Shown here: one piece after another, positions 2,384 through 8,403 of the stretch
Numbering within the stretch: the first letter of the stretch is position 1
Layout: every line of letters starts with the position of its first letter
Program-made: the position numbers and the translations under genes
The notes under the pieces: generated by a model
Told to the model about the DNA's origin: nothing
The model's database searches: none
Seen by the model: only the letters and a program-made list of their open reading frames with translations
Assembly: GCA_021157815.1 (NCBI GenBank)
Contig: JAGGVT010000089.1
Span: 1 to 8,798, forward strand
DNA: 8,798 bases
DNA from: a bacterium
GTDB lineage: Bacteria > JAJVIF01 > JAGGVT01
Reading direction: 5' to 3'

Positions 2384-4420
2384 ATGACATCAGGTTCTCT
2401 TAAAGAGATAGTATCAGTTTCAATAGGCTCATCCCTGCGGGATCATACTTTCGAATGTGAATTTCTGGGTGAGCGATATCTCATACGGCGAATCGGGACT
2501 GACGGCGACAAGCAAAAAGCAAGGGAACTGATTAAAGAATACGACAACAAAGCATCCGCGATTGGGCTTGGTGGAATTGATGTCTTCTTCCAGGTTGGGA
2601 ATAGAACATACGTTCATAAAGATGGCATGAGACTAATGAAGGCGGCGAAAAAAACGCCGGTCGTGGATGGCAGCGGACTTAAACACACGCTCGAAAGATG
2701 GGCGATTGCGTATCTGCATAACGTGCATCCTGAAATTCTAAAAAACAGGCGAGTTCTTGTAATGAGCGGGATAGACCGTTCGGCTATGGCTGAGGTTATC
2801 AGTGAATTCGCATCGAAAGTTTCCTTCGGCGATTTCCTTTTCAATCTGAGATTATCGATTGTCATTAAAAACCTGGCATCATTGAAGAGAATCGCGAGAT
2901 ACGTTCTCCCGATATTATGCAAACTTCCATTTGAATGGATTTATCCAACCGGACGTCGACAGGAAACCCGCCACGAACGTTACACATCGGTTTTTAAAAA
3001 ATCGGATGTTGTTGTAGGCGATTTCCACCAGATACGCCGTTACGCCCCGTTGGATTTAAAGGGCAAGTCAATAATCACCAATACTGTTACTGCGGATGAC
3101 AGAAAGGATTTGAAATCGCGTGGCGTCGAATGGCTGATTACAACAACGCCCATAATGGATGGCCGCACGTTCGGCGCGAATGTTCTGGAAGCGTTGTTCA
3201 TAGCGCATCTGACATCGCAGGGATATGAACTCGACCGGGAGGTTCGCCCATCGGTTACGCTGCGTGATGAGTATCTGAATCTGATTCTCGAAAGCGGGAT
3301 AGAACCGAGCATCGAGCAATTGAATCCCGTTGAGGAAAAGGTAACCAACCAGTTCGCGTTTGTAGTGCACCCGTTGAAATTGTCGGATGTTTTCGAAATC
3401 AAGGCTTTCAGATGGCTGAGGAATCTTCCACCCGCACTGCTTGAAATGGCGCTTGCCCAGCTTCCGCCTGTCCATGTGTCAAGAACATCGGTGATAACCA
3501 CTCCTGACGGGAAACAGACACAGGGGTCATTGTACGCGTTGATTATGACACCTAAAATGATGATGCGCCTTCCAGAGGAAAGGGTTTACACAGACCTGGT
3601 AAAAATCGCGAACCTGGCGAAACAACGTTCCATCGGGATTATGGGGCTTGGAGCGTTCACCAGCGTCGTTGGCGATGCCGGTTTGTCTGTCGCGAAAAGA
3701 AGCCCGATTCCGGTTACAAGCGGTAATTCGCTTACAATCTGGGCGACAGTTGAAACCGCGAAACAAGCGTGCAAATTAATGGGAATCAAACTTTCCAGTG
3801 CGTCAGTTATGGTAGTTGGCGCGACAGGCAGCATCGGCAAGGCGATTACCCGCATGCTGGCTCCACAAGTCGGTAGAATGGTGATAATCAGCCGAAGGCC
3901 GGAAAGAGTCCTGGAGTTTTCCCGCGAAATTCAATCTGTCTGCCCGGATGTCAACAGCGGAACTGTTGTTGAAACATTGATTGGAGAAATGGACCTTGTC
4001 ATAGCTACAACAACCGATCCTGATGGAGTTGTCGATGTCATGGCACTCAAATCGGGATGCGTTGTTCTGGATGTTGCCCGTCCGCCGGATGTCTCGAAGG
4101 AGCAGGCTGAAAGGCGCGATGACGTTCTTATTATCGAGTCAGGCGAAATTCGCATTCCGGGTGAAGTCGATTGGGGGGTTAATATTGGCATGCCTCCGAA
4201 TATCGCATATGCCTGTCTTGCGGAAACAATCCTTCTCGCGGTAAGCGGACGATTTGAAAGCTACACGCTTGGCAGGGAACTAGACATTGAAAAAATAAGG
4301 AAAATTGGTGAGCTTGCCATTCAAAATGGTTTTGAATTAAGCGAACCAATCAGCTTCGGACGGATGCTCAGCAGGGAGGATATCACCGCGATTCGAAACC
4401 GGGCGCAATCGAAAAGTTAA
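2384..4420 (+). CDS. Two-domain reductase: quinate-dehydrogenase-like domain fused to acyl-ACP-reductase-like domain
   Basis: I chose ATG 2384 (678 residues); GTG 2372 in the same frame is possible, and neither has a ribosome site. Residues 1 to about 310 (VSVSIGSS near the start, VVDGSG 93-98, GDFHQIRRY 212-220, TTTP...GRTFGANV 253-267) recall proteins named quinate 5-dehydrogenase on weak grounds. Residues from about 324 to the end align along their whole length with cyanobacterial long-chain acyl-ACP reductase (about 340 residues). Shared blocks are LGAFTS (422-427), TSGNSLT (445-451), the nucleotide-binding GATGSIG (479-485), LKSGCVVLD around Cys559 (LKQPCVLID in Synechococcus, where this Cys forms the acyl-thioester), and YACLAETILL followed by the closing helix IEKIRKIGELAIQNGF. 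The reaction by homology is acyl-ACP or acyl-CoA plus NADPH to fatty aldehyde; the substrate here is inferred. No aldehyde-deformylating oxygenase gene is in the window. The protein is cytosolic or membrane-associated, with no signal peptide. Confidence 0.85.
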   Translation: MTSGSLKEIVSVSIGSSLRDHTFECEFLGERYLIRRIGTDGDKQKARELIKEYDNKASAIGLGGIDVFFQVGNRTYVHKDGMRLMKAAKKTPVVDGSGLKHTLERWAIAYLHNVHPEILKNRRVLVMSGIDRSAMAEVISEFASKVSFGDFLFNLRLSIVIKNLASLKRIARYVLPILCKLPFEWIYPTGRRQETRHERYTSVFKKSDVVVGDFHQIRRYAPLDLKGKSIITNTVTADDRKDLKSRGVEWLITTTPIMDGRTFGANVLEALFIAHLTSQGYELDREVRPSVTLRDEYLNLILESGIEPSIEQLNPVEEKVTNQFAFVVHPLKLSDVFEIKAFRWLRNLPPALLEMALAQLPPVHVSRTSVITTPDGKQTQGSLYALIMTPKMMMRLPEERVYTDLVKIANLAKQRSIGIMGLGAFTSVVGDAGLSVAKRSPIPVTSGNSLTIWATVETAKQACKLMGIKLSSASVMVVGATGSIGKAITRMLAPQVGRMVIISRRPERVLEFSREIQSVCPDVNSGTVVETLIGEMDLVIATTTDPDGVVDVMALKSGCVVLDVARPPDVSKEQAERRDDVLIIESGEIRIPGEVDWGVNIGMPPNIAYACLAETILLAVSGRFESYTLGRELDIEKIRKIGELAIQNGFELSEPISFGRMLSREDITAIRNRAQSKS

Positions 4421-4441: not shown

Positions 4442-4676
4442 GCTGGTAACAAGGGACTTAAGAGCGTGTCGGGAAAGCATGTTGATTCTTAAACATACCA
4501 TTTTCCTGATAACTCTCGGGTGCCGTCCACACATCACGTCTTTTTGTGATTTGTGGGTGAAATGCATAACTTCGCAACATGTCACCCATAAAGCCGAGAC
4601 GGCTGTATGGGCGGCACCCGACGTTTTAAATCGGTTTGGTGCCTTTCCCGACAGGCTCTTAAGCCCCTTGTCCAGC
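4442..4676. repeat. 235-bp element with long terminal inverted repeats (MITE-like)
   Basis: The left end (4442-4477) and right end (4643-4676) are inverted copies. The core CTTAAGAGCGTGTCGGGAAAG at the left matches the complement of the right end with one change in 21. The match extends outwards through ACAAGGG to GCTGG with a 2-base gap and one more change. There is no transposase, so it is non-autonomous. A different palindromic repeat (4517-4620) sits inside it. I see no clear target-site duplication. It fills nearly all of the 285-base gap between the reductase gene and rfbB. Confidence 0.65.
4517..4620 (+). repeat. Cloverleaf-like palindromic repeat, copy 1 (104 bp)
   Basis: The ends CGGGTGCCG and CGGCACCCG pair, and the outer stem extends to about 17 positions with one G-T pair and one mismatch. 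Inside are three further hairpins: ATCAC/GTGAT, TTGTGGGTGA/TCACCCATAA (one G-T), and AGCCG/CGGCT with a three-base loop. A second copy lies inverted at 8302-8403, roughly 80 percent identical by eye. The outer and central stems are kept in both, so the structure may be what is selected. It may be a mobile palindromic element or a structured RNA. Confidence 0.75.
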
Positions 4677-5792: not shown

Positions 5793-6425
5793 ATGTGCGA
5801 CAAGATTAATCATGATGCGCAAAAGAAAAAGGTAATCCCCCTTAACAAAACGTATATGTGGGGGATTGTATTTTGTCTGGCTGCGTTAATCGCAATAGTG
5901 ATGTTCAACATTCTGAGAGAGCCATCGATTCCGGCAACGAAAATCGATTATCTTGCGCTCCTCAGGGATAATCATAATCGCAGTATGAGCTTAAGGGGAT
6001 TCACGCGCAAAGGCGGTAAAACGCTTGGCGACCTTCAGTCTCTGATGGCGCAGAAAATCGGCGCCCCGGTTATTTTCCCCGACTGGCTTGGCACTGATCC
6101 CTTAGTCGAAATCATCGGCGTAAAGGCAACAAAAATTGGTGACGACAAAACTGTCAATCTGGTTTTTAAATATGACAACAGGCATGTGGATTTCCTTATC
6201 CTGCACACAACGCGAACCGAAATCAAGGAACTCAATAATTTGACACAAGAGGAGCACGAGTTTCATTCTTACAGCTGGGGCAGGACAAACGCGTTTTATT
6301 GGGAACTCACAGAGGATAATCTGCCTGTAACATACGGCTTAATCAGCGATATCGAATCATCCGCGCTTCAACAAATGGCGTTCGAGACAATGCTTTCACT
6401 TAGGACTCACTTCGAACGGTTGTAG
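5793..6425 (+). CDS. Single-pass membrane protein with anti-sigma-like outer domain
   Basis: The 210-residue product has a basic cytosolic tail (residues 1-20, with KKK at 11-13), one membrane segment (about 21-41, WGIVFCLAALIAIVMF) and an outer domain of about 165 residues; the charge distribution puts the C-terminus outside. The outer domain (short early helices, then GAPVIFPDW, a strand VNLVFKYDNRHVDFLIL, then FYWELTEDNLPVTYGLISDI and a final helix) recalls the extracytoplasmic part of transmembrane anti-sigma factors. There is no zinc-binding HxxxCxxC motif in the tail and no sigma factor gene nearby, so this is resemblance only. The ATG at 5793 follows an in-frame TGA at 5787, so no longer frame exists. 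Codons 14-25 contain a hairpin, AATCCCCC (5834-5841) with GGGGGATT (5860-5867). The stop codon TAG is part of a dispersed inverted repeat. The gene faces tyrS. Confidence 0.75.
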   Translation: MCDKINHDAQKKKVIPLNKTYMWGIVFCLAALIAIVMFNILREPSIPATKIDYLALLRDNHNRSMSLRGFTRKGGKTLGDLQSLMAQKIGAPVIFPDWLGTDPLVEIIGVKATKIGDDKTVNLVFKYDNRHVDFLILHTTRTEIKELNNLTQEEHEFHSYSWGRTNAFYWELTEDNLPVTYGLISDIESSALQQMAFETMLSLRTHFERL

Positions 6426-6489
6426 GGGCGCTGCTTGCTGCGCCCTCTTCGGATGCACCATTCAGGGCGCAGCAAGCGACGCCCCTACA
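6421..6489. repeat. 26-bp inverted repeat between convergent genes
   Basis: The left arm, 6421-6446 (starting TGTAGGGGCG), and right arm, 6464-6489, pair in 24 of 26 positions around a 17-base spacer. Related GC-rich TAGGGGCG palindromes are a familiar type of dispersed repeat in bacterial spacers. It lies between two converging genes and could block transcription from both sides, but no T-tract follows on either strand. The left arm supplies the TAG stop of the upstream gene. Confidence 0.75.
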
Positions 6490-6515
6490 ATCGCTCAGCC
6501 TTGTCCGAGTTCCGG

Positions 6516-8210: not shown

Positions 8211-8301
8211 AATGGAACCCCCCAGGGAGTACAATTATTAATCTTGACATATGTAACCCCTGTCCCTGCAATGTGTAAACCTTGTCCGTGGACAAAACAG
8301 C

Positions 8302-8403
8302 CGGGTGCCGCCCATACATCAGTCCCGGCTTTATGGGTGTTTGCCGCGAAGTTGCGCATTTCACCCACAAATCCCGCTTCGCGTGATGTGTGGGCGGCAC
8401 CCG
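8302..8403 (-). repeat. Cloverleaf-like palindromic repeat, copy 2 (102 bp, inverted)
   Basis: Read on the minus strand this matches the element at 4517-4620 at roughly four bases in five. The outer arms pair over 20 positions with a single G-T. The central stem TTTGTGGGTG/CACCCATAAA is kept, and the first side hairpin is CGC-GAA-GCG, different in sequence from copy 1. This copy is not enclosed by the 21-base terminal repeat seen around copy 1. Confidence 0.75.

Follow-up and report, generated by a model that had tools for sequence, protein, structure and literature searches.

A two-part protein with an acyl-ACP-reductase-type module and a probable partner module of similar predicted fold, a candidate fatty-aldehyde synthase

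The window analyzed here comprises 8,798 nucleotides (positions 1–8,798 of contig JAGGVT010000089.1) of a draft bacterial genome (GCA_021157815.1; 3.2 Mb, 221 contigs, 91% complete), whose phylum is represented by four genomes in the comparison. The open reading frame at positions 2,384–4,420 of the forward strand was confirmed as real. It encodes a two-part protein of 678 amino acids, and a GTG at position 2,372 is a possible alternative start. An N-terminal part of about 315 residues (N module, residues 1–315, positions 2,384–3,328) precedes a C-terminal part of about 355 residues (C module, residues 324–678, positions 3,353–4,417). The same full-length fusion is present in all three sister genomes of the source phylum (50–54% identity), and each of the four genomes also carries a second, free-standing N copy. 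The neighbors of the fused gene in the window (two lipoprotein-like genes and genes for dTDP-glucose dehydratase and TyrRS) are uninformative about lipids.

AlphaFold modeled the whole protein with a mean pLDDT of 90; residues 323–663 of this model superimpose on residues 1–341 of cyanobacterial acyl-ACP reductase (AAR), with Z 34.6 and an rmsd of 2.6 over 322 residues at 24% identity. Sequence comparison covers AAR 37–335 (E 3e-25), so the preliminary description of this half as an AAR homolog holds. When the profile of the C half was compared with solved structures, PigE (4ppm, E 2e-60) scored better than AAR (E 3e-46). NCBIfam models gave 201 bits for PigE (NF053554, E 2.6e-59, cut-off 850) and 95.2 bits for AAR (TIGR04058, cut-off 449.7), both matches being sub-equivalog; a cyanobacterial-type AAR used as a control for TIGR04058 scored 648.6 bits. 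The closest sequence relative of the C module is thus the reductase domain of the PigE/TamH-type fusions of an aminotransferase with a thioester reductase. A closer match to a dehydrogenase family with a known different reaction had been raised beforehand as a reason to doubt the assignment. The N-terminal reductase domain of PigE is indeed nearer, but it belongs to the same reaction class as AAR (PMC8341465). Unlike the PigE/TamH-type proteins, the window protein has no aminotransferase domain detectable with Pfam, and its score lies below their family cut-off.

The residues expected for catalysis were mapped onto AAR. The GATGSIG dinucleotide loop (residues 479–485, positions 3,818–3,838), already recognized in the preliminary description, aligns with AAR 162–168 (GATGDIG), and its glycines 479 and 482 are kept in 95 of 95 C modules. 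Cys611 (positions 4,214–4,216), the predicted acyl carrier, aligns with AAR Cys294, to which the acyl group is bound in that enzyme (PMC7089970); the equivalent residue of PigE is Cys296 (PMC8341465). All 51 fused sequences and all 95 C modules have this cysteine. The acyl group had earlier been assigned to Cys559 (positions 4,058–4,060). This residue corresponds to AAR Cys240, and alanine takes its place in 47 of the 51 fused sequences and 84 of the 95 C modules, which rules it out as the acyl site. Because Cys611 is the invariant counterpart of Cys294, the residue named earlier was wrong, whereas the underlying idea survives. The prediction that the C half is an acyl-thioester reductase forming a fatty aldehyde is well supported by the fold, the cofactor motif and the invariant acyl cysteine. 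The NADPH-phosphate residue, Arg504, is kept in the window protein and is Ile or Pro in most fusions, so that cofactor preference may differ from that of AAR.

The C module shares with cyanobacterial AAR (TIGR04058; PDB 6JZU) the fold over its whole length, the GATGxIG loop and the acyl cysteine. It differs in its sub-cut-off score, in the attachment of an N module that is itself AAR-like in predicted fold, and in the tested features linked to the aldehyde-deformylating oxygenase (ADO). The AAR residues needed for ADO binding (R73, R79, K80 and Y247) are Pro, Thr, Asp and Arg in the C module, so all four tested are lost. ADO (PF11266) had been reported missing near the gene; the absence extends to the whole draft source genome and to 36 other N-bearing genomes. 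Both observations fit the earlier suggestion that the end product may not be an alkane. The carmabin TAD (PDB 9e4s–9e56) is a near-equal structural match to both halves of the window protein (Z 33.8 for C, 13.8 for N), but it is part of an assembly-line protein and shares only ∼19% (C) and ∼10% (N) identity. Literature searches on the carmabin TAD and on AAR in Chloroflexota yielded nothing useful.

The N module belongs to an unclassified family. The preliminary description called it quinate-dehydrogenase-like, a label for which the sequence gave no support. No Pfam family matched the window N module at E ≤ 1, and the family of 61 members that includes it gave isolated chance-level matches, none of them to shikimate dehydrogenase. 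The Shikimate_DH family (PF01488) instead matches the C half (residues 466–577, 40.3 bits, above the gathering cut-off of 24.3). The reading of N as a shikimate or quinate dehydrogenase thus found no support, given the lack of a family match and of a glycine-rich nucleotide loop at the putative loop position. Sequence searches of N against solved structures also returned nothing. Folded alone from the 61 sequences, N gave a confident model (pLDDT 94, pTM 0.91). Its nine best structural matches were all AAR or carmabin TAD entries (Z 13.0–14.1, the highest to AAR 6jzz; 248–266 residues, ∼10% identity), and the next folds followed about three Z units lower (Z 10.1). From this model and the profile alignment described next, we infer that N adopts a far-diverged AAR-like fold.

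A common origin of the two modules appears likely from these models. Profile–profile comparison of N and C with hhalign was not significant and no better than that of 17 unrelated control families, so the argument for common origin rests on the predicted fold at Z ∼14. The longer profile alignment (156 columns) is collinear with the secondary structure and pairs AIGLGG of N with MGLGAF of C, TPVVDGSG with IPVTSGNS, the SGVDRxG loop with GATGSIG, and TNTTTxED with DVARPPDV. In this register, which follows secondary-structure order and the collinear alignment, the place of the AAR loop GATGDIG would be taken in the window N module by SGIDRSA (residues 128–134, positions 2,765–2,785), which is not a GxGxxG motif and has no glycine-rich character. 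Helix correspondence, anchored on Glu269, which is invariant in N and would equate to Glu614 of C, places Asn266 (positions 3,179–3,181) at the putative counterpart of the catalytic cysteine. The whole-protein model has a pTM of 0.64, leaving domain packing uncertain, and no N–C interface was seen.

Conservation within N was scored over twenty positions that are invariant or nearly so in free-standing copies; these copies also conserve the motif DGSGLKHTLER (residues 95–105, positions 2,666–2,698). Free N proteins scored 18–20, the window protein and two sister fusions 20, and two other fusions 15–17. The remaining fusions, mostly from Chloroflexota, scored 4–10, which suggests that N has probably lost its pocket there and not in the group of the window protein. 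Since the pocket residues are intact in the latter group, its N module probably retains a ligand-binding or catalytic job. To judge from label and distribution, the free-standing form of N is probably the family annotated as "quinate 5-dehydrogenase" in bacteria including Thermus (deino9.00587, PMC9425974); the annotation is noted in that study for Thermus, and no function is shown there.

Across bacteria, N is hardly ever present in a genome that lacks a C module. In a set of 385 genomes, C was detected in 48 and N in 37, each of which also has C (hypergeometric p 4e-42 by genome, ∼3e-24 by family). The two are fused in 10 of the 37 N-bearing genomes, adjacent on the same strand in 9, within 2 kb in 2 and unlinked in 16. 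N was found in none of the 98 genomes of the cyanobacterial phylum (that of G050, a genome encoding an AAR that scores above the TIGR04058 cut-off). The 80 named loci include 50 complete fusions, mostly from Chloroflexota, with others labeled Planctomycetota, Wallbacteria, Myxococcota and Calditrichota. At ten Firmicutes loci in this set N and C are separate adjacent genes, with the recurrent order coaX-dus-HTH-N-C-greA-lysS. Fused C modules group in a single clade with 100/100 support. Two rows without N break this pattern in the tree; one is cut by a contig end, and the other (G085) has N elsewhere in its genome. Plasmid searches returned nothing with free N and 15 distant matches with C, of which 13 carry annotations as fusions with class III aminotransferases. 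This near-obligate pairing points to an unrecognized two-part enzyme.

Clues to the fate of the product come from the partners of the C module. In the Thermus-like phylum (that of G022), N is present in 106 and C in 107 of 111 genomes. A fusion of C to the acyltransferase PlsY was confirmed by the PlsY domain in one of them (L025:8365-10026), and most others have open frames of ∼550–700 amino acids, a length compatible with a PlsY–C fusion. One genome of this phylum, G577 (96% complete), has N and no detected C. The phylum looks like Deinococcota, given its PlsY-fused C module and the N-type annotation in Thermus (PMC9425974). Where it treats fusions, the PlsY structure paper names one of PlsY with a fatty-acid-binding protein and none of PlsY with a reductase. 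Other C modules are joined to class III aminotransferases, and aminotransferase–reductase fusions of this kind were described earlier (PMC10829540). In some Chloroflexota the N–C fusion is followed by genes for an SDR-type dehydrogenase, a PlsC/DAGAT-like acyltransferase and an SCP2 protein.

We propose, with moderate confidence, that the window gene encodes a fused two-part fatty-aldehyde synthase, in which C makes an aldehyde for lipids and N is a partner half of the AAR fold. Judging from the fold and the conserved residues, an acyl group from acyl-ACP or acyl-CoA would be transferred to Cys611 of the C module. Hydride from a nicotinamide cofactor held in the GATGSIG fold would then release a long-chain aldehyde, in the manner of AAR and the PigE reductase domain. 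N, with the same predicted overall fold, far diverged, without the glycine-rich loop and with a putative Asn in place of the catalytic Cys, would function solely in combination with a C module, forming the other half of the enzyme. It would most likely bind the acyl chain, the carrier or the product in its own pocket and stabilize or gate C; in most Chloroflexota fusions, where the pocket residues are lost, it is probably only structural. The aldehyde would probably enter lipid synthesis (as alcohol, amine, ester or diol) and not alkanes. Counting against this proposal are G577, the 16 of 37 genomes in which N and C are unlinked, and the lack of significant N–C sequence similarity.

The N module might instead be an independent enzyme, such as a second dehydrogenase, acting on the aldehyde or on another pathway substrate, with the fusion providing ordinary channeling. 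We regard this as possible but doubtful. It would account for the "quinate 5-dehydrogenase" label, for the general resemblance of N to two-domain amino-acid dehydrogenases, and for the ∼20 polar or glycine residues that free N proteins keep across phyla, as an active site would. The frequent separation of N from C, its occasional duplication and the second free N in the four source-phylum genomes are likewise easier to place. However, N matches no dehydrogenase family and shows no GxGxxG at the expected loop. Moreover, most Chloroflexota fusions have lost the residues conserved in free N and yet persist as fusions, which would bar a required second catalytic step unless another enzyme substitutes.

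Doubt could also be directed at the substrate. The thioester that C reduces could be non-fatty (polyketide-like or amino-acyl, as for PigE and the carmabin TAD), with N recognizing this substrate or its carrier protein. PigE, and not AAR, is the best sequence match of C, and the carmabin TAD almost equals AAR as a structural match. We nevertheless consider this reading unlikely: no NRPS, PKS or carrier gene was seen in the window or in the recurrent neighbor clusters examined, those recurrent neighbors that can be named point to lipids, and occurrence in nearly all genomes of the Thermus-like phylum suggests a place in core metabolism. The most skeptical account, that N is an inert leftover, an unrelated α/β domain that scores against AAR by chance and has been retained since an ancient fusion without any functional tie, draws on the missing sequence similarity to C and the loss of pocket residues in many fusions. 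It is very improbable in view of the 37/37 co-occurrence, the separate adjacent genes in Firmicutes, the intact motif residues in the window N module, and the gap of about three Z units between AAR-type chains and all other folds.

We know of no assigned role for AAR-type reductases outside cyanobacteria that lack an attached aminotransferase. If the two modules form one fatty-aldehyde synthase, as we propose, a near-obligate partner predicted to share the reductase fold offers a direct handle on these enzymes, and the N family, unnamed in Pfam and NCBIfam and almost universal in the Thermus-like phylum, acquires a functional hypothesis. The group of the window protein is useful here because both halves lie in one polypeptide and the N residues are intact.

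N-glyceroyl-alkylamine lipids and long-chain diols both need a reduced fatty chain, and no enzymes are known to be the source of the N-glyceroyl-alkylamine phosphoglycolipid or of the diols. A phospholipid of the N-glyceroyl-alkylamine type is common to Thermus, Meiothermus and Deinococcus, and Meiothermus is also reported to contain long-chain diols (PMC3035268). We infer that N and PlsY–C would make the aldehyde for such lipids, which links the alkylamine and diol lipids of the Thermus-like phylum to two testable genes. The full combination is put forward tentatively: that N and C are halves of an unrecognized fatty-aldehyde synthase, N being an ancient reductase twin that became an obligate partner and has a ligand or an active site of its own, and that this enzyme is also the aldehyde source for the Thermus/Deinococcus-type N-glyceroyl-alkylamine phosphoglycolipid (and long-chain diols).

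Several further features were recorded at these loci. A conserved protein of ∼185 residues with a weak helix-turn-helix match is encoded at the ten Firmicutes loci (e.g., L159:8500-9057), mostly directly upstream of N, and may be a local regulator. At G184:C2:146056-148936, two N genes in tandem lie directly ahead of a C gene of the same orientation. The free N gene of the source phylum adjoins genes for a DUF3084 protein and for sugar-kinase-like, ArgZ-like and LptC-like proteins in three of the four genomes (L026, L028 and L029), an envelope-related context. Directly upstream of the fused gene in the window, the overlapping forward-strand genes at 843–1,529 and 1,520–2,281 encode two paralogs of lipoprotein-like or secreted type, 32% identical across 157 residues and without a Pfam match; they are a tandem duplication in an unknown family. 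Inverted 45-nucleotide arms at 4,583–4,627 and 8,295–8,339 (87% complementary, 3.7 kb between them) are possibly a dispersed intergenic repeat. A 33-nucleotide inverted repeat with a 17-nucleotide loop (6,414–6,496), between the convergent open reading frame at 5,793–6,425 and tyrS, is perhaps a bidirectional terminator.
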